Positions 1,605-55,050 of a stretch of DNA of 60,243 bases are shown piece by piece. The notes below the pieces were generated by a model. That model did not search any database. It had not been told where the DNA came from and worked only from the letters and a program-made list of their open reading frames with translations. Origin of the DNA: Deltaproteobacteria bacterium (GTDB taxonomy: Bacteria; Desulfobacterota; Desulfobacteria; Desulfobacterales; SpSt-501); NCBI GenBank assembly GCA_016219005.1, contig JACRCN010000065.1, positions 1-60,243 of the forward strand. The letters are read 5' to 3'. A program made the translations under genes and the position numbers. How positions within the stretch are numbered: position 1 is the stretch's first letter; each line of letters begins with the position of its first letter.

Positions 1605-2549
1605 ATGGACAAAGAAGAAAGAGCTTTTTATGAAAAACTGGAGGGCAAGGGGGTCTCCAGACGGGACTTCATGAAGTTCTGCACGTTTCTGACAGCGACC
1701 ATGGGTCTGTCCTCCTCGTTCATTCCGAAAGTGGCCGAGGTGTTCGCCGCGCCAGCCCAGCGTACGCCGGTCATCTGGCTGCATTTCGGCGAATGCACGG
1801 GATGCACCGAGGCCGCGATCCGGGCCATGTATCCCTGGATCGACCAACTGGTGCTCGAGGTCCTGGACGTCGAGTATCAGGAAACCATCATGGCGGCCGC
1901 CGGGCACCAGGCTGAGGAACAGCTGCACAACGCGGTCGAGAAATACAAGGGCAAGTTCATCTGCGTCGTCGAAGGCGCCATCGCCACCAAGTTCAACGGC
2001 GGCTATGGCAAAGTGGCCGGCAAGACCTTCCTGCAGACCGCCAAAGAGGTCTGCTCCAAGGCGGCCGGCGTCATCTGCATCGGGCAATGCTCGTCCTACG
2101 GCAATATCCAGGCGGCCAAACCCAACCCCGGCGGTTACAAGGGCGTGGGTGCGGCGCTCGGCATCAAAACCGTCAATATCGCTGGTTGCCCGCCCAACCC
2201 GATCAACTTTGTCGGCACGATCGTCAACTACCTCCTCCTCGGCAAGCTGCCCGCCCTGGATGACATCGGACGCCCCCTGTTTGCCTACGGCCAGACCATC
2301 CACGACAACTGCCCCCGTCGGGGTCATTTCGAAAGCGGGGAGTTCGTCGAAGTGTTCGGCTCCAAGGAGGCCGCTGAAGGCTACTGCCTCTTCAAGGTCG
2401 GCTGCCGCGGACCCGAGACCTACAACAACTGCTCGATCGTCAAGTTCAACGGCGGCACCAGCTGGCCGGTCCAGGCGGGCCATCCCTGCATTGGCTGCAG
2501 CCAACCGGATTTCTGGGACAAGTTCACCCCGTTCTATCAGGAACTGTAG
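1605..2549 (+). CDS. hynB: [NiFe] hydrogenase small subunit, Tat-exported
   Basis: A 314-residue electron-transfer subunit of a periplasmic H2 uptake hydrogenase. The N-terminus has a twin-arginine signal (SRRDFMKF at residues 18-25) and a hydrophobic stretch ending near VFAAPA. The mature part shows the proximal cluster motif GECTGCTEA, then GQCSSYG and AGCPPNP. It ends with the distal/medial cluster region (HDNCPRRGHF, GYCLFKVGCRGP, NNCS, WPVQAGHPCIGC). The proline in WPVQAGHPC is the residue that in standard enzymes goes with a [3Fe-4S] medial cluster; classical NiFeSe enzymes have Cys near here. A strong AAGGAGGT lies 7 nt before ATG. The gene is followed after 53 nt by the large subunit. 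It could also be named hysB if the enzyme is classed as NiFeSe. Confidence 0.93.
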   Translation: MDKEERAFYEKLEGKGVSRRDFMKFCTFLTATMGLSSSFIPKVAEVFAAPAQRTPVIWLHFGECTGCTEAAIRAMYPWIDQLVLEVLDVEYQETIMAAAGHQAEEQLHNAVEKYKGKFICVVEGAIATKFNGGYGKVAGKTFLQTAKEVCSKAAGVICIGQCSSYGNIQAAKPNPGGYKGVGAALGIKTVNIAGCPPNPINFVGTIVNYLLLGKLPALDDIGRPLFAYGQTIHDNCPRRGHFESGEFVEVFGSKEAAEGYCLFKVGCRGPETYNNCSIVKFNGGTSWPVQAGHPCIGCSQPDFWDKFTPFYQEL

Positions 2550-2602
2550 TTCAGGGGTCAGTAACCGAGACGAACATCCATAACGAAGATGGAGGAGATC
2601 AT

Positions 2603-4249
2603 ATGGCTGAGAGAATCACGATCGATCCGATAACCCGAATCGAGGGCCATCTCAAGATAGAAGTTGAGGTGTCCGGGGGCAAAGTGGTCAACGCCTGGAG
2701 TTCCGGAACGATGTTCCGGGGCATCGAGCTCATTCTCCAGGGGCGGGATCCGCGGGATGCCCAGCATTTCGTGCAGCGCACCTGCGGGGTTTGAACGTAC
2801 ATCCATGCTCTGTCCTCGGTGAGGGCAGTCGAAAACGCCGTTGGCGTGAAGATCCCGAAGAATGCGCGGATCATCCGCAACCTCATGCACGGTGCGCAGT
2901 ACCAGCATGACCACATCGTCCATTTCTATCACCTCCACGCCTTGGACTGGGTGGACGTGGTCAGCGCCCTGAAGGCCGACCCGGCCAAGACCGCGGCCCT
3001 GTCCGACAACGTCTCCAACGCCCCGTGGGGCGGTGTTGCCTACTTCAAGAGCGTGCAGCAGCGGTTGCAGACCTTCGTTGACAGCGGCCAGCTCGGGCCG
3101 TTTTCCAACGCCTACTGGGGGCACCCGGCCTACAAGCTGCCGCCGGAGGCGAACCTCATGGCCACCGCCCACTACATAGAGGCGCTGAGGCTGCAGGCCA
3201 AGGCGGCCCGCATGCACGCGATCTTCGGCGGTAAGAACCCGCACCCGCAGCATCTGGTGGTCGGCGGAGTCACCTGCGCCAACGACCTGACCGCGGACCG
3301 TATCGCGGAGTTCCTGTACATCACCAAGGAAACCCAGGACTTTATCAAGAACGTCTACATTCCCGATCTGCTGGCGGTGGCCTCCTTCTACAAGGATTGG
3401 GGCGCCATCGGCGGAACCAGCAACTTCCTCGCCTGGGGCGATCTTCCGCTGAGCGAGAAGGAGCCGGAAAGCCTCTTCATGCCGCGCGGCGTCATCATGA
3501 AACGCAACATCGCCGGCGTCATGTCGGCCGATCCGACGCGGGTCACCGAGCACGTCGCCCGCTCTTGGTACGAGGGCAAAGAGCCCCGGCATCCTTACAC
3601 CGGCGAGACCAAGCCGCTGCAGGAAGACCCGAAGTATGCCACGGAAGGCAAGTACTCCTGGCTGAAGGCCCCGCGCTACGACGGCGAGTCCTGCGAGGTC
3701 GGCCCGCTGGCCCGGACCCTGGTAGCTTACGGTCTCGGCAGGCCGGAAATCAAAGCCACCGTGGACAAGGTCCTGAGCACCCTCGGCGTGCCCGCCGCGG
3801 CCCTGTTCTCGACCCTCGGCCGCACCGCCGCCCGAGGCATCGAGACCCTGGTCGTCGGCGAGGCCGTACAGGGCTGGGTCATGGAACTCGTGGAGAACCT
3901 CAAGGCCGGCGATTCCAAGATCTACGAGACCTGGGAAATGCCGGACAAGGCCCAGGGCGTCGGCCTGAACGACGTGCCCCGCGGGTCCCTCGGGCACTGG
4001 ATCGTGATAGACGGCAAGAAGATCAAGAACTACCAGTACGTGGTGCCTTCTACGTGGAACCTCGGCCCGCGCTGCGCCAAGGGCAAGATGGGCCCGGTGG
4101 AGGAGGCGCTGATCGGGACCCCGGTTGCGGATCCCAAGAAGCCGCTCGAGGTCCTGCGCACGGTGCACTCCTTCGATCCGTGCATCGCCTGCGCGGTCCA
4201 CGTCATCGACCCGGATTCCAACGAAGTTTACAAGATCAAGGCGTTATAA
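2603..4249 (+). CDS. hynA: [NiFe] hydrogenase large subunit with in-frame TGA (probable selenocysteine 64)
   Basis: The catalytic subunit for H2 oxidation/production, 548 residues if TGA 2792-2794 is read as selenocysteine. Residues 1-63 (DPITRIEGHL near residue 8, then RTCGV) and the sequence after the TGA (TYIHALSSV onward) are one continuous family member with no frameshift. The L1 motif therefore reads R-T-C-G-V-U-T-Y-I-H, with Sec replacing the second (bridging) cysteine. The C-terminal L2 motif is a normal DPCIACAVH, followed by a 15-residue tail expected to be removed by the maturation protease encoded next. In described NiFeSe hydrogenases Sec lies in L2, so this position is unusual. 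GGAGGAGAT precedes the ATG. A nonsense mutation or read error (TGC/TGT to TGA) is the alternative, but the downstream hairpin supports recoding. Confidence 0.9.
2792..2828 (+). promoter_or_regulatory. UGA codon and candidate bacterial SECIS hairpin
   Basis: TGA occupies 2792-2794. An 8-bp stem follows: 2810-2817 pairs with 2821-2828 (one T-G wobble), with loop GGT at 2818-2820. The loop starts 23 nt after the UGA. Bacterial SECIS elements are known to have a small apical loop with G in the first two positions, about 16-37 nt after the UGA, so spacing and loop both fit. The fold was done by eye. Confidence 0.65.
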
Positions 4250-4306: not shown

Positions 4307-4432
4307 ACCCGGATTGACGGCCTGCCGTCGGTTGGGATACAGTTCTCCCGCAGCTTTGGCAACCTACCGCAGCGTATGGGGCGTTTCGCGTGGCGGATCC
4401 CATCGGTTTTCCCCATGAAAGGACATTGCAGA

Positions 4433-4993
4433 TTGGCGCAGCCGGACCGAAATCCATTCGACGACATCTACTCCCCGGAGGTCATGATCCTCGGGATCGG
4501 TTCGATCCTCTACTCGGATGACGGGTTCGGCATCCGCGTGATCGAACAGATCCAGCGCGATTACGAATTCCCGGACACCGTGCAGGTGGTGGACGGCGGC
4601 GTGCTGGGCATCAACCTGCTGGGCGTGATTTCCAAACCCAAGCAGCTCATCGTTGTGGACACCCTGCGCAACAAGGGGAAGCCCGGCGATCTCTACCGCC
4701 TGGAGGGGGACGCCATACCCGAGCGCATCCGTGCCAAAAACTCCCTGCACCAGGTAGTCTTCCTGGAGGCGCTGACCCTCTGCCAGGCCCTCGACAACGT
4801 CCCTCAAACCGTTATTATCGGGGTTGAGCCGGAGGACATCCAGACGCTCAGTCTGGTGCTGACGCCGACCGTTCAGGCGCAGGTGGAAGCGGTCATACGG
4901 ATGGTTCTGGACGAACTCGGCCGTCTCGGCGTAAATTACCGCAAAAAGGAAGGCCCGGATCATGTGTCTCGCGATTCCTTCGAAAATCACTAA
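4433..4993 (+). CDS. hynD: Hydrogenase maturation protease (HyaD/HynD family)
   Basis: A nickel-dependent endopeptidase that removes the C-terminal tail of the large subunit after metal insertion. The family motif MILGIGSILYSDDGFGIRV (residues 18-36) carries the conserved Asp that binds nickel. VDGGVLGINLL and VVDTLR follow, and the family region GVEPEDIQ contains another conserved acidic residue. TTG 4433 was preferred because AAAGGA lies 9 nt upstream; ATG 4484 would give a 169-residue protein with poor SD spacing, and ATG 4415 has no SD. It overlaps hypC by 32 nt, indicating translational coupling. Confidence 0.88.
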   Translation: MAQPDRNPFDDIYSPEVMILGIGSILYSDDGFGIRVIEQIQRDYEFPDTVQVVDGGVLGINLLGVISKPKQLIVVDTLRNKGKPGDLYRLEGDAIPERIRAKNSLHQVVFLEALTLCQALDNVPQTVIIGVEPEDIQTLSLVLTPTVQAQVEAVIRMVLDELGRLGVNYRKKEGPDHVSRDSFENH

Positions 4994-5216
4994 GATTGAG
5001 AACAACATGGCCGTCATCGACGTGGACGGCGTCAAACGGGAAGCCAGCCTGCTGCTGATCGAAGATGCGCAGGTGGGCGACTACGTCATCGTGCATGCCG
5101 GCTTCGCGATCTCGAAGATCGACGAGCAGGGGGCCCTCGAAACCCTGGCGCTTCTCAGAGAGGCCGCCGCCCTGATGGACGGCCGCGAGGGCGATGGAGG
5201 CCCGTCGGGCGTGTAG
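4962..5216 (+). CDS. hypC: Hydrogenase assembly chaperone HypC
   Basis: An 84-residue HypC/HupF chaperone. The N-terminal MCLAIP, with the essential Cys2, is diagnostic. VDVDGVKREASL and GDYVIVHAGFAI are the OB-like core, followed by a helical end. It carries the Fe(CN)2CO precursor with HypD and delivers it to the hydrogenase large subunit. AAAAGGAAGG precedes the ATG. It overlaps the protease gene and sits 3 nt before hypF. Confidence 0.95.
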   Translation: MCLAIPSKITKIENNMAVIDVDGVKREASLLLIEDAQVGDYVIVHAGFAISKIDEQGALETLALLREAAALMDGREGDGGPSGV

Positions 5217-5219
5217 TCC

Positions 5220-7496
5220 ATGGCGCAGACCTATGGGGCAAAGCGGCTGCTCGTCAACGGAATCGTCCAGGGCGTTGGGTTCCGGCCGTTTGTCTACCAG
5301 TTGGCCGTCCGCCACGGCTTGAAAGGGGAGGTGGCCAACACGTCCGCCGGGGTGATCATCCACATCGAGGGACCCCCTGAGCAGATGCGTGCGTTTGAAT
5401 CCGACCTCACCGAAAAAAGCCCGCCGCTGGCGCACATTGTCGAGATCGAGAGCCAACCGGACATCATCCGCAGCTACTCTGGTTTCGAAATCGCCCGGAG
5501 CCGCGGCGCTGCGGCCATGACCACGCTGATCTCCCCGGACGTCGCCGTCTGCGGCGACTGCCTGGCCGAGATGTTCGACCCGGCCGACCGCCGCTTCGGC
5601 TACCCGTTCATCAACTGCACGAACTGCGGCCCGCGCTACACTATCATCGACGACATCCCCTACGACCGGCCCAAGACCAGCATGCGGCACTTCGCCATGT
5701 GCGCGCGGTGCCAAGCCGAGTACAACGACCCCGCCAACCGGCGCTTTCACGCCCAGCCCAATGCCTGCCCGGCGTGCGGCCCGCACATCGGCCTGTGGGA
5801 CGGCCGCCGGAACCGGGTGGATGCGCCGGACCCCGTCGCCCGCGCGGCGGAGCTCATCCGCGAGGGGCTCATCCTGGCGGTGAAAGGCCTGGGCGGGTAC
5901 CACCTGGCGGCCGATGCCACGCAGCCCGAGGCCGTGGACCGACTGCGGCAACGCAAGCGGCGGGAGGAAAAGCCCTTTGCCGTGATGTCCTTCGACCTGG
6001 CGACGATCCGCTCTTACGCCGTGACGGGGCCCGAGGAGGAAAAACTGCTCGCTTCGATCGAGCGGCCCATCGTGCTGCTGGCCAAGCGGCAGCCCTTTGT
6101 GCTGGCGGAGGCGGTGGCCCCCCGCAACCGCTACGTGGGCGCGATGCTGCCCTACACGCCGCTGCACTACCTGATTCTGCGCCACGGGTTTCCGGCGCTC
6201 GTCATGACCAGCGGCAATCTGAGCGAAGAGCCGATCGCCATCGACAACGACGACGCTTTCGAGCGGCTGGCCGGCGTCGCCGATTTTTTTCTGGTTCACA
6301 ACCGGGACATCTATCTGCGCAGCGACGACTCCGTCGTGCGCCGCGCGGCGGGCGCCACACGCTTCATGCGCCGCTCGCGGGGCTATGTGCCCGTGCCGGT
6401 GTTTCTCAAGCACAAGCTGCCGCCGGTCCTGGCCTGCGGCGCCGAGCTTAAAAACACCGTCTGCATCACCCGGGGCAACCAGGCCTTCCTGAGCCAGCAC
6501 ATCGGCGACCTCGAAAACCTGGCGACCTACGAGTTCTTCCAGAAGACCGTGGCCCACATGCGGCGCATCCTCGCCGTGCGGCCGGAGATCATCGCCTGCG
6601 ACATGCACCCGGACTATTTAAGCACACGCTGGGCCGAGGAGCAGGCAGGCATGCCCCGGGTGCGGGTGCAGCACCACCATGCCCATATCGTGAGCGGCCT
6701 GGCAGAGTTTGGGATCGAGGGGCCGGTGATCGGGCTTGCCTGCGACGGCACCGGCTATGGCCCGGATGGCACGGTATGGGGGGGCGAGGTGTTGGTGGCG
6801 GATGTGCGGGGCTTCGAGCGGGTGGCCCATCTCGCCTGCGTTTCGATGCCCGGCAGTGCCGCAGCCATAAAGGAACCCTGGCGCATGGGCCTGAGCTATC
6901 TGCACGATGCCTTCGACAACCGTATGTGGGACCTGGATCTCCCGGTCCTGAGAGAGAACGGCGACGCCAAGGCCAGGCTCATTGTGGAGATGATCGAAAA
7001 GCAGGTCAACTCGCCGCGCACCTCCAGCATGGGGCGCCTGTTCGACGGGGTGGCCGCCATCGCCGGCCTGCGGGGTCGGGTCAACTACGAGGGCCAAGCC
7101 GCCATGGAACTCGAGATGGCGGCGGCAGACGACACCGATTCCGCCTACGATTTCGCCTGGCAGGACGGGGAGCCGCTGCGCATCTTGCCAGCGCCGATCA
7201 TCCGCGGCGTCGTCTCCGACCTGCGCGACGGGGTCCCGGTCCCGGTCATCAGCGCGAGGTTCCACAACAGCCTGGTGCGGATGCTGAGCGATCTTTGCGT
7301 TCTGCTGCGCGGCCGGCGGGGCTTGAACCGCGTGGTCCTGAGCGGAGGGGTGTTCCAGAACGCGCGCCTCCTCGGCGGCCTCATCCCCGCGCTCGAGGGC
7401 AGCGGGTTTGAGGTTTACAGCCATCGGCGGGTGCCGACCAACGACGGCGGCATCGCGTTGGGGCAGGCGCTGATCGCCGCCGCGATCAGCTTATAG
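5220..7496 (+). CDS. hypF: Carbamoyltransferase HypF
   Basis: A 758-residue enzyme that turns carbamoyl phosphate into a thiocarbamate on HypE, the source of the cyanide ligands of the [NiFe] site. Domains in order: acylphosphatase-like (GIVQGVGFRPFVY, residues 14-26); two zinc-finger pairs (CGDC...CTNCGP and CARC...CPACGP, about 111-187); a YrdC-like domain; and a Kae1-like transferase domain with HHHAH and CDGTGYGPDGTVWGGE (about 487-523). Length and domain order are normal. hypA and hypB are absent from this cluster and must lie elsewhere if present. Confidence 0.96.
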   Translation: MAQTYGAKRLLVNGIVQGVGFRPFVYQLAVRHGLKGEVANTSAGVIIHIEGPPEQMRAFESDLTEKSPPLAHIVEIESQPDIIRSYSGFEIARSRGAAAMTTLISPDVAVCGDCLAEMFDPADRRFGYPFINCTNCGPRYTIIDDIPYDRPKTSMRHFAMCARCQAEYNDPANRRFHAQPNACPACGPHIGLWDGRRNRVDAPDPVARAAELIREGLILAVKGLGGYHLAADATQPEAVDRLRQRKRREEKPFAVMSFDLATIRSYAVTGPEEEKLLASIERPIVLLAKRQPFVLAEAVAPRNRYVGAMLPYTPLHYLILRHGFPALVMTSGNLSEEPIAIDNDDAFERLAGVADFFLVHNRDIYLRSDDSVVRRAAGATRFMRRSRGYVPVPVFLKHKLPPVLACGAELKNTVCITRGNQAFLSQHIGDLENLATYEFFQKTVAHMRRILAVRPEIIACDMHPDYLSTRWAEEQAGMPRVRVQHHHAHIVSGLAEFGIEGPVIGLACDGTGYGPDGTVWGGEVLVADVRGFERVAHLACVSMPGSAAAIKEPWRMGLSYLHDAFDNRMWDLDLPVLRENGDAKARLIVEMIEKQVNSPRTSSMGRLFDGVAAIAGLRGRVNYEGQAAMELEMAAADDTDSAYDFAWQDGEPLRILPAPIIRGVVSDLRDGVPVPVISARFHNSLVRMLSDLCVLLRGRRGLNRVVLSGGVFQNARLLGGLIPALEGSGFEVYSHRRVPTNDGGIALGQALIAAAISL

Positions 7497-7604: not shown

Positions 7605-8714
7605 ATGAGCATCAAGCACATAGAGGAGTATCGCGATTCCACGCTGGCCCGACAGCTCTCCGAAAAGATCAGGCGCCTCAGCCGGCGCAAGATCCGCCTC
7701 ATGGAGGTCTGCGGCACGCACACGGTGTCCATCTTCCGGAGCGGTATCCGCTCCCTGCTGCCGGAGACGATTTCACTCCTGTCCGGCCCGGGCTGCCCCG
7801 TGTGCGTAACCGACCAGGCGGAGATCGACGCCTTCATCGAGCTCGCCCGGCAGAAGGATGTCATCGTGACCACCTTCGGCGATCTGATGCGCGTGCCGGG
7901 CAGTGCCTCGTCCCTGCAGCGCGAACGGGCCGAAGGCCGGGACATCCGCATGGTGTACTCGACCATGGATGCCGTCGGGCTGGCCCAACAGAATCCCGGT
8001 CGGCACGTGGTGTTCCTCGGGGTGGGCTTCGAGACCACCGCGCCGACGATCGCCGCCGCCATCCTGACGGCCGCCGGATTGAAACTCGAAAATTTTTCGG
8101 TGATTTCCGCCCACAAGGTGGTGCCGCCGGCGCTGGAGGCGCTCATGACGGTGGACGGGGCGCGGATCGACGGGTTCATCCTGCCCGGCCACGTGTCGGT
8201 GATCATCGGGCTCAAGGCCTACCGGCCGTTTTTCGAGCGCCACCGGATGCCTTGCGTGGTCGCCGGGTTCGAGCCCGGCGACATCCTGCAGGCCGTCGCG
8301 ATGCTGGTCGAACAGTTCGAAACCGGCCGGCCCCGCCTCGAAAACGCTTACCCGCGGGCGGTCGCGCAAGAGGGCAACCTGAAGGCGCAGCAGGTTCTCA
8401 CGCAGGTGTTCCAGATCGGGGATGCCTGCTGGCGCGGCATCGGACGAATCCCCGACAGCGGCCTGCAGATCCGTGCGTCCTACGCCGCTTATGACGCCGG
8501 CCGTCGCTTCGCCCTGCACCTGCCGGAGCCGAAGACGCCCAGGGGCTGCGCCTGCGGCGAGATCCTGACGGGCCAGAAAACCCCGCCGGAGTGTGCGCTC
8601 TACAAGAAGGTGTGCACGCCGATCGACCCGGTGGGCCCCTGCATGGTGTCGAGCGAGGGGACGTGCGCCGCGTATTATCGGTACCATTACGATGAGCTCG
8701 AAGCTCAAAGCTGA
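7605..8714 (+). CDS. hypD: Hydrogenase formation protein HypD
   Basis: A 369-residue iron-sulfur scaffold where Fe(CN)2CO is built together with HypC. Visible HypD signatures are MEVCGTHT (residue 28 on), GPGCPVCVT (about 64), GVGFETTAPT, and the C-terminal cysteine-rich cluster region with CACGEIL, PPECALYKKVC and CMVSSEGTCAAYY. AAAGGA lies upstream of the ATG. There is a 108-nt gap after hypF and the gene ends 25 nt before hypE. Confidence 0.96.
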   Translation: MSIKHIEEYRDSTLARQLSEKIRRLSRRKIRLMEVCGTHTVSIFRSGIRSLLPETISLLSGPGCPVCVTDQAEIDAFIELARQKDVIVTTFGDLMRVPGSASSLQRERAEGRDIRMVYSTMDAVGLAQQNPGRHVVFLGVGFETTAPTIAAAILTAAGLKLENFSVISAHKVVPPALEALMTVDGARIDGFILPGHVSVIIGLKAYRPFFERHRMPCVVAGFEPGDILQAVAMLVEQFETGRPRLENAYPRAVAQEGNLKAQQVLTQVFQIGDACWRGIGRIPDSGLQIRASYAAYDAGRRFALHLPEPKTPRGCACGEILTGQKTPPECALYKKVCTPIDPVGPCMVSSEGTCAAYYRYHYDELEAQS

Positions 8715-54480: not shown

Positions 54481-54549
54481 GCACCCAGCTTGCTTGGCCC
54501 TTTTAAGTTCGGCCGCCTCGCCTGTGATCCGCAGGGGGCACGATCTTGC

Positions 54550-54725
54550 CGGCAAGGCAGGTCTTCTGGCTCCCCCGCTCGCTTGGCGACCTTCCCATCC
54601 CGCTAACACGAAACAGTGGTCATTCGGGCCAAGTGAGTTCCCCGGCGCATGTCTCCGGGGCGGGGTTACAGCGGCGGGACCGCCCCCGATTCGCACGGGG
54701 TTCCCTATTAAGCGCATGCACCTCG
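54550..54725 (-). ncRNA. Cobalamin riboswitch upstream of cbiK
   Basis: On the minus strand: GGGAACCCCGTGCGAATC, then CGGTCCCGCCGCTGTAA (the conserved B12-box neighbour), a P6 arm around CCGGAGACATGCGCCGG, GACCACTGTTTCG, GGGATGGGAAGGTCG and GGGGGAGCCAGAAGACCTGCC (B12 box). All class I landmarks are present. It should repress cbiK and the transport and biosynthesis genes when adenosylcobalamin is plentiful. Confidence 0.95.
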
Positions 54726-54741
54726 CCGGATTGATGTCGGA

Positions 54742-54821: not shown

Positions 54822-54849
54822 CTGCCGCACAATTCATCATGCAAGCCTG

Positions 54850-55035
54850 ATGGCGCCCGTTCGGGCTCAATTAGGGAATCCGGTGTGAATCCGGAACGGA
54901 CCCGCCGCTGTGATCCCGCCCCGATGCAACATGTCGGGGAACCCTTTTGGCGTTGATGGACCACTGTTTCGTTTCAACGGAATGGGAAGGTCGCCGAAAG
55001 GGCGGGAGAGTCAGAAGACCGGCCTTCAGGTTCGC
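54850..55035 (+). ncRNA. Cobalamin riboswitch upstream of cobT
   Basis: AGGGAATCCGGTGTGAATCC, then CGGACCCGCCGCTGTGATC, GACCACTGTTTCG in variant form, GGAATGGGAAGGTCGC and GAGTCAGAAGACCGGCC (B12 box). Same class as the minus-strand copy and partly similar in the P6-P7 region, suggesting duplication of the control unit. Confidence 0.95.
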
Positions 55036-55050
55036 GATGGGAGAGATGGC

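Follow-up and report, generated by a model that had tools for sequence, protein, structure and literature searches.

The in-frame UGA at codon 64 of the [NiFe] hydrogenase large subunit gene described here is very probably read as selenocysteine (Sec), in what would be a periplasmic group 1 uptake hydrogenase whose selenolate bridges nickel and iron. Hydrogenases of this kind, in which selenium replaces one of the sulfurs that join Ni and Fe, seem to occur in many sulfate reducers and in relatives of these. We regard the TGA as more than a chance event, because it recurs at the same column in homologous genes and is accompanied by a codon-frozen hairpin that has no counterpart in the Cys homologues.

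The large subunit gene and its surroundings

The DNA analysed, hereafter the window, is a stretch of 60,243 nucleotides from a genome assembly of 5.24 Mb (98.5% complete, 4.67% contamination). The features relevant to the hydrogenase are listed below with the evidence for each.

1605 to 2549, plus strand: hydrogenase small subunit with a Tat signal and an ECTGC motif (TIGR00391, 408 bits; TIGR01409)
2603 to 4249, plus strand: [NiFe] hydrogenase large subunit, 548 aa, with predicted Sec64 (translation, NCBIfam, PDB alignment)
2783 to 2785, plus strand: TGC, Cys61, the first L1 ligand, terminal by alignment (sequence, PDB alignment)
2792 to 2794, plus strand: TGA, codon 64 (predicted Sec64), the second L1 position, which bridges Ni and Fe by alignment (translation, PDB alignment, conservation)
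2810 to 2828, plus strand: SECIS-type hairpin within the coding region, with an 8-bp stem CUGUCCUC/GAGGGCAG and the loop GGU at 2818-2820 (fold, codon freeze, pair counts, shuffles)
4181 to 4192, plus strand: L2 Cys527 and Cys530 (sequence, translation, PDB alignment)
4376 to 4993, plus strand: HyaD/HybD-type hydrogenase maturation protease (TIGR00140, TIGR00072)
4962 to 5216, plus strand: presumed HypC-like small chaperone (ORF list, sequence start)
5220 to 7496, plus strand: hypF (TIGR00143, 802 bits)
7605 to 8714, plus strand: hypD (TIGR00075, 469 bits)

With the TGA counted as a residue, positions 2603-4249 were translated in one frame from ATG to TAA, and the only internal stop was the TGA itself, in the L1 context RTCGV-TGA-TYIH. 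L2 reads DPCIACAVH, with Cys527 at 4181-4183 and Cys530 at 4190-4192, none missing. The top PDB sequence retrieved by phmmer was 1h2a_L of D. vulgaris Miyazaki F (746 bits), the alignment to which spans residues 5-547 and places residue 64 opposite Cys84; all four ligand positions align with 1h2a, one of them being TGA and the others Cys. We take Cys84 of the Miyazaki F enzyme and the second L2 Cys to be the two ligands bridging Ni and Fe, and Cys81 and the first L2 Cys to be the terminal ones. An earlier note on this DNA had described a sole in-frame stop at the second, bridging Cys of L1, an L2 with both Cys, and two intact halves in frame, and the translation and the alignment bore out this description. 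By its sequence, the ORF is a group 1 [NiFe] hydrogenase large subunit.

The large subunit gene adjoins its partner small subunit and the protease, hypF and hypD genes, as expected of a group 1 [NiFe] hydrogenase. The protease scored 150.5 bits with TIGR00140 (cut-off, 151.8) and 138.8 bits with TIGR00072 (cut-off, 47.45), and the product of 4962-5216 was named HypC-like from its start, MCLAIPSKI, on our assumption that this start marks such a chaperone. The small subunit carries ECTGC; O2-tolerant enzymes have ECTCC in this subunit. A long antisense ORF on the minus strand (2558-4201) spans the hydrogenase gene and was set aside as a presumed by-product of codon composition. A crude scan of the window for further read-through genes returned 10 frames that look like ordinary gene ends, and it may have missed others; the hydrogenase itself was absent from its output, probably since the antisense ORF was counted as a competitor. 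Elsewhere in the window, two divergent cobalamin riboswitches stand back to back at 54539-54740 (minus strand) and 54834-55041 (plus strand).

Recurrence of the TGA and the hairpin that accompanies it

The distribution of the TGA was examined by protein searches within the phylum of the source genome. At the family rank, where all 7 genomes searched belong to one genus code, the TGA was present at the same column in two congeners (G005, 86% identical; G003, 84%) besides the source genome, and two others (G001, 83%; G006, 82%) have TGC; the match in G004 and a second match in G003 lack the N-terminus, and G002 gave no match. Within the order, 163 of 389 genomes searched matched at an E value of 1e-150 or better, and at least 56 of these carry the TGA, in at least 57 genes from at least 24 family codes and 33 genus codes, the L1 column having been checked in each gene. 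A search of 395 genomes of the phylum gave 169 with a match, and among the matches listed at least 11 have the TGA, of which five lie outside the order. When GTDB genomes were scanned for the pattern, 68 stretches were obtained, comprising 58 hydrogenases and 10 chance hits; the titles of the hydrogenase records include Desulfobacterales, Desulfobacteraceae, Deltaproteobacteria and Syntrophobacteria, and among them are the Olavius endosymbionts Delta 1 and Delta 4, Desulfosudis oleivorans and Eth-SRB1.

Once near-identical entries were removed, 151 hydrogenase entries were left, 80 with TGA, 48 with TGC and 23 with TGT (71 for the two Cys codons together). One partial TGA entry (L096) proved to be a duplicate of L036, leaving 79 non-redundant TGA entries, and two entries (L093 and L107) contain masked stretches. 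Both L2 Cys are present in all 73 of the 80 TGA entries that reach them, 72 showing the motif in full and one showing DPCIAC; in the remaining seven the sequence ends or is masked ahead of L2. Among the residues that differ between TGA and Cys genes, the foremost is residue 67, Thr in the former versus Val in the latter. Thus, a TGA at this column, which the earlier note had proposed to look for in Desulfobacterota, is found in 79 non-redundant entries, covering other orders besides at least 24 families of this one.

Bacterial SECIS elements are hairpins lying shortly downstream of the UGA, with a G-rich apical loop and a spacing rule. The window gene carries a candidate of this type, a short-range downstream hairpin with 8 bp and a GGU loop. 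In the main clade the hairpin starts 15 nt after the TGA and has the form CUGUCCUC-GGU-GAGGGCAG, with the loop starting at nt 24 after the UGA; the loop is GGU in 71 and GGC in 5 TGA entries. Because the hairpin sits in coding sequence, the choice among synonymous codons provides a fair test of its conservation. In the 70 full-length main-clade TGA genes, codons +7 to +10 are invariant wherever the encoded residue does not change (TCC, 66/66; TCG, 70/70; GTG, 65/65; AGG, 70/70), and codon +11 is GCA in 66 of 68. The Arg codon within the hairpin is AGG in all 70 TGA genes versus 10 of 67 Cys genes. When segments of 12 codons were scored, the one beginning at +2 was the most codon-conserved of 531 in the TGA genes (0.82 versus a median of 0.46), and the same segment scored 0.395 in 69 Cys genes, where the +4 segment ranked 488 of 531, many of these genes encoding a nearly identical peptide. 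Likewise, L171 (TGA) and L173 (TGT) encode proteins that are 95% identical, and their hairpin elements differ.

The stem is fully paired (8 pairs) in 73 of 76 TGA entries (the duplicate being counted) versus none of 70 Cys genes, and the full set of pairs formed in 393 of 152,000 shuffles in which synonymous codons were drawn by each gene's own usage. The hairpin structure was drawn from the same sequences, so the percentage paired is biased towards it; the codon comparison is free of this bias. Two-sided changes that preserve pairing were found in 2 genes at pair 1 (C-G replaced by U-A) and in 2 at pair 4 (U-G replaced by G-U), and each of the three remaining TGA entries has one unpaired stem position (G-G at pair 4 in two, C-A at pair 1 in one). 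Folding energies computed for a 56-nt stretch showed no excess stability over shuffles in three TGA genes (z of 0.12, -0.83 and 0.17), and two Cys genes folded better than these (z of -1.42 and -1.16); the 23-nt core folds to -8 kcal/mol or below in 7 of 70 Cys genes. Since thermodynamic folding of the 56-nt stretch gave no signal, the argument for the hairpin rests on codon conservation. The conserved hairpin whose absence, together with Cys in all homologues, would have spoken against Sec according to the earlier note is therefore present with the TGA, and it is codon frozen.

To follow the Sec and Cys states through the family, a FastTree tree of 143 proteins was built with the L1 region left out. 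The two states are interspersed along the tree; their distribution needs 20 changes, compared with a mean of 48 for shuffled labels, and 13 or more of the 20 fall on well supported branches. Because one hairpin is common to 24 families and the Cys genes are scattered, this pattern suggests one gain followed by many reversions to Cys, with transfer between lineages also possible. In a distant clade (f92 by family code; about 57% identity), three genes (L221, L222 and L223) have the TGA at the same place, and their hairpin, CAGCUC-CGUGA-GAGCUG, differs from that of the main clade; the trait thus seems to have arisen twice. Within this clade, L224 (G534:C179) has Cys at the bridging position and an unchanged distant-clade hairpin, and is likely a fossil of a recent Sec-to-Cys change. 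L221 (G603:C106:1423-3123) has a TGA at the first L1 Cys as well, giving a predicted UGVU (RI-U-GV-U-TTVH), in a single assembly in which a sequence error is possible. Taken together, we consider it probable that these genes represent a natural class of bridging-selenolate hydrogenases, present in at least 24 families of one sulfate-reducer order and also outside it, with many Sec/Cys switches, at least two origins with unrelated SECIS hairpins, and one member, L221, in which both L1 ligands would be selenium.

Selenium machinery and alternative readings of the UGA

In the source genome we found selA (609 bits), a canonical selB (378 bits, contig C89) and selD (contig C100), the last with an in-frame TGA of its own. 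A formate dehydrogenase (1444 bits) in this genome also has one TGA, an argument that uses stop counts alone; in a motif check of the formate dehydrogenase loci, one showed a plausible UHxP (L233) and the match in another (L229) looks like the wrong frame. A search with the tRNA-Sec model did not find a canonical tRNA-Sec in this assembly, and a search for the flank of a congener's tRNA-Sec found nothing there. The one tRNA with a UCA anticodon that was found is of Cys type (contig C100, 55.5 bits with the tRNA-Sec model) and has, by reading of its sequence, U73 and A1:U72. Hence, among the sel genes that the earlier note had proposed to look for, selA, selB and selD are in place and selC was not found in the assembly; its selenocysteine reading is supported by the recurrence of the TGA, the hairpin and these three genes, and is incomplete at the canonical tRNA-Sec of the source genome.

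The Cys-type tRNA lies in a cluster (L227 4721-11987, G000:C100) with a second SelB (282 bits), a CysRS that is short and without the C-terminal part of the profile, a double-cubane reductase, a dehydratase activase and selD. The reductase, activase and selD hint at a role of this set in selenium chemistry. The tRNA stands before the second SelB and the short CysRS and so matches the selC*-selB*-cysS* arrangement; sets of this kind are described in Desulfobacterales in the consulted part of PMC7609411. UGA64 might then be read as Cys by the Cys-type UCA tRNA (selC*), SelB* and CysRS* of C100, which would give an ordinary [NiFe] enzyme, and the presence of the whole set in the source genome, together with the canonical tRNA-Sec not found in its assembly, speaks for this. 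To examine the matter more widely, 80 chosen genomes (52 TGA and 28 Cys) were surveyed. SelB*-like genes, defined by at least 35% identity over 450 residues or more, are indeed commoner in TGA genomes (12/52) than in Cys genomes (1/28), shorter pieces being present in two more TGA genomes (G042 and G469) and one Cys genome (G078); both a SelB*-like gene and a UCA tRNA of Cys type (L270 2120-2211) are present in the genome of L221 as well. However, 40 of the 52 TGA genomes have the same hairpin and no SelB*-like gene, 38 of them without even a piece among the matches listed, and SelB* therefore cannot be the general decoder of the hydrogenase UGA. Canonical tRNA-Sec, scored at 70 bits or more, is present in 43 of the 52 TGA genomes versus 27 of the 28 Cys genomes. 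Of the 56 TGA genomes of the order, 49 have canonical selB and seven gave none; for G166 and G198, two of the seven, this was taken from their absence among the matches listed. The machinery thus permits Sec in most TGA genomes, but it does not tell the TGA and Cys groups apart. The source genome retains selA and canonical selB, and for Cys an ordinary TGC codon would do just as well. The congener G005 has both tRNAs, its canonical tRNA-Sec (L267 3127-4357, G005:C140) standing directly before a tyrosine recombinase-like gene, perhaps at an integration site, and in G003 the canonical tRNA-Sec lies at a contig end; from these positions it is plausible that the gene was lost from the source genome at an assembly gap. 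We consider decoding of UGA64 as Cys in the source genome very unlikely.

A TGA that simply stops translation, leaving a dead gene or a 63-residue fragment after mutation or sequencing error, would require only the one base that separates TGA from TGC or TGT, and the sequences come from assemblies that, judging from the record titles, are for the most part metagenomic. Yet the TGA recurs in 79 non-redundant entries, which represent at least 24 families within the order as well as further orders, the downstream frames and L2 are intact, the codon-frozen hairpin accompanies it, and TGA and Cys states alternate along the tree in 20 changes, at least 13 of them well supported. We rejected a pseudogene or sequencing error on the recurrence, the codon freeze and the intact frames, and give this reading a very small chance. 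A further possibility can hold together with Sec insertion and bears on what it is for: UGA64 could be a selenium-dependent switch, with a Cys paralogue covering when selenium is short. The source genome has a second group 1 large subunit (L002, G000:C72:1537-3135), 58% identical, with CxxC at L1 and no in-frame stop, and selenium-dependent swaps of Vhu and Vhc in Methanococcus voltae are mentioned in the consulted part of PMC2702500. On the other side, among the matches listed a Cys-type second enzyme (55-60% identity) was seen in few TGA genomes (G000, G120, G211, G215 and G291), a lower bound as up to three candidates were scored per genome, and we regard a switch as rather unlikely.

We therefore favor Sec at UGA64. 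SelB bound to the hairpin at 2810-2828 would bring the Sec-tRNA to the UGA, and in the mature enzyme, probably periplasmic and H2 oxidizing, Ni would be held by three Cys and one Sec, with the selenolate as one of the two Ni-Fe bridges. By analogy, selenium at this site would probably help by averting oxidative or sulfide damage or easing its repair, or by shifting the balance of activity. Our preferred guess for why selenium would sit at the bridge, held with about even confidence, is that the enzyme thereby resists oxidation or recovers from it more easily.

Relation to known hydrogenases

The closest solved sequence is HynAB of D. vulgaris Miyazaki F (PDB 1h2a), near full-length and with the same L1 and L2 surroundings, which has Cys84 where the window gene has its predicted Sec64. 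The [NiFeSe] enzyme HysAB (PDB 5jsu; we take PDB 1cc1 to be a [NiFeSe] hydrogenase too) likewise comes from a sulfate reducer and has one Sec among its four Ni ligands. In HysAB, Sec replaces the first Cys of L2, a terminal ligand, whereas the window gene keeps both L2 Cys and has its predicted Sec in L1. Its product scored 425.9 bits with the HysA model NF045518 (cut-off, 780), and the position that defines HysA, the first L2 Cys, holds no Sec on inspection; the enzyme is thus not of the HysA type. NCBIfam NF033181 (NiFeSe_hydrog; cut-off, 600) was considered as a possible earlier description and discarded, as Cys and TGA genes score alike and the enzyme is not singled out: three Cys genes (L002, L173 and L218) scored 570.9-600.8, four main-clade TGA genes (that of the window, L023, L171 and L193) 574.0-595.6, and the distant clade 519.2 (TGA) and 530.4 (Cys). 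FrhA and VhuU are also NiFe hydrogenase alpha subunits with Sec; they are group 3 enzymes with Sec in L2.

In the sections consulted of the respective papers, Sec of HysAB is encoded by a UGA that has a SECIS downstream of it (PMC4730141), Sec of [NiFeSe] enzymes is non-bridging, the terminal position being the only natural Sec site named (PMC11212049), and the Sec motif of FrhA and VhuU is UxxC (PMC13188914, Table 1). A 2026 inventory counts 119 prokaryotic selenoprotein families and subfamilies, the latter split by Sec position, and for NiFe hydrogenase alpha subunits the part consulted has only FrhA and MvhA/VhuA/VhuU, with UxxC (PMC13188914). The literature searched, most subscription papers lying outside it, contained no mention of a natural L1 selenocysteine, and an earlier mention is possible; the earlier note knew of no described enzyme with Sec at the bridging L1 Cys, and the consulted part of the inventory has no such entry (PMC13188914).

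In the accessible literature, natural [NiFeSe] hydrogenases carry selenium at one terminal Ni ligand, and the case for its part in proton transfer and O2 tolerance is built on that position. Here evolution seems to have settled on another ligand; it links the two metals, and the accepted proton path runs over a different Cys. This would offer a natural comparison for the role of selenium in hydrogenases, protection of the metal site versus tuning of catalysis. Close Sec/Cys pairs such as L171 and L173 make matched tests possible. Annotation that takes UGA as a stop may split such large subunits in two, and H2 uptake by sediment sulfate reducers, worm symbionts included, could be undercounted.

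Cys64 of E. coli Hyd-2 presumably occupies the same position as residue 64 of the window gene. When Sec was engineered at Cys 61, 64, 546 or 549 of Hyd-2, all four variants oxidized H2, at a reduced level, according to the part of PMC11212049 consulted; the Cys64 variant is among them, which supports the view that a bridging Sec site can work. The Hyd-1 and Hyd-2 enzymes with Sec at each of the four Cys are laboratory constructs, whereas the window gene is a natural one.
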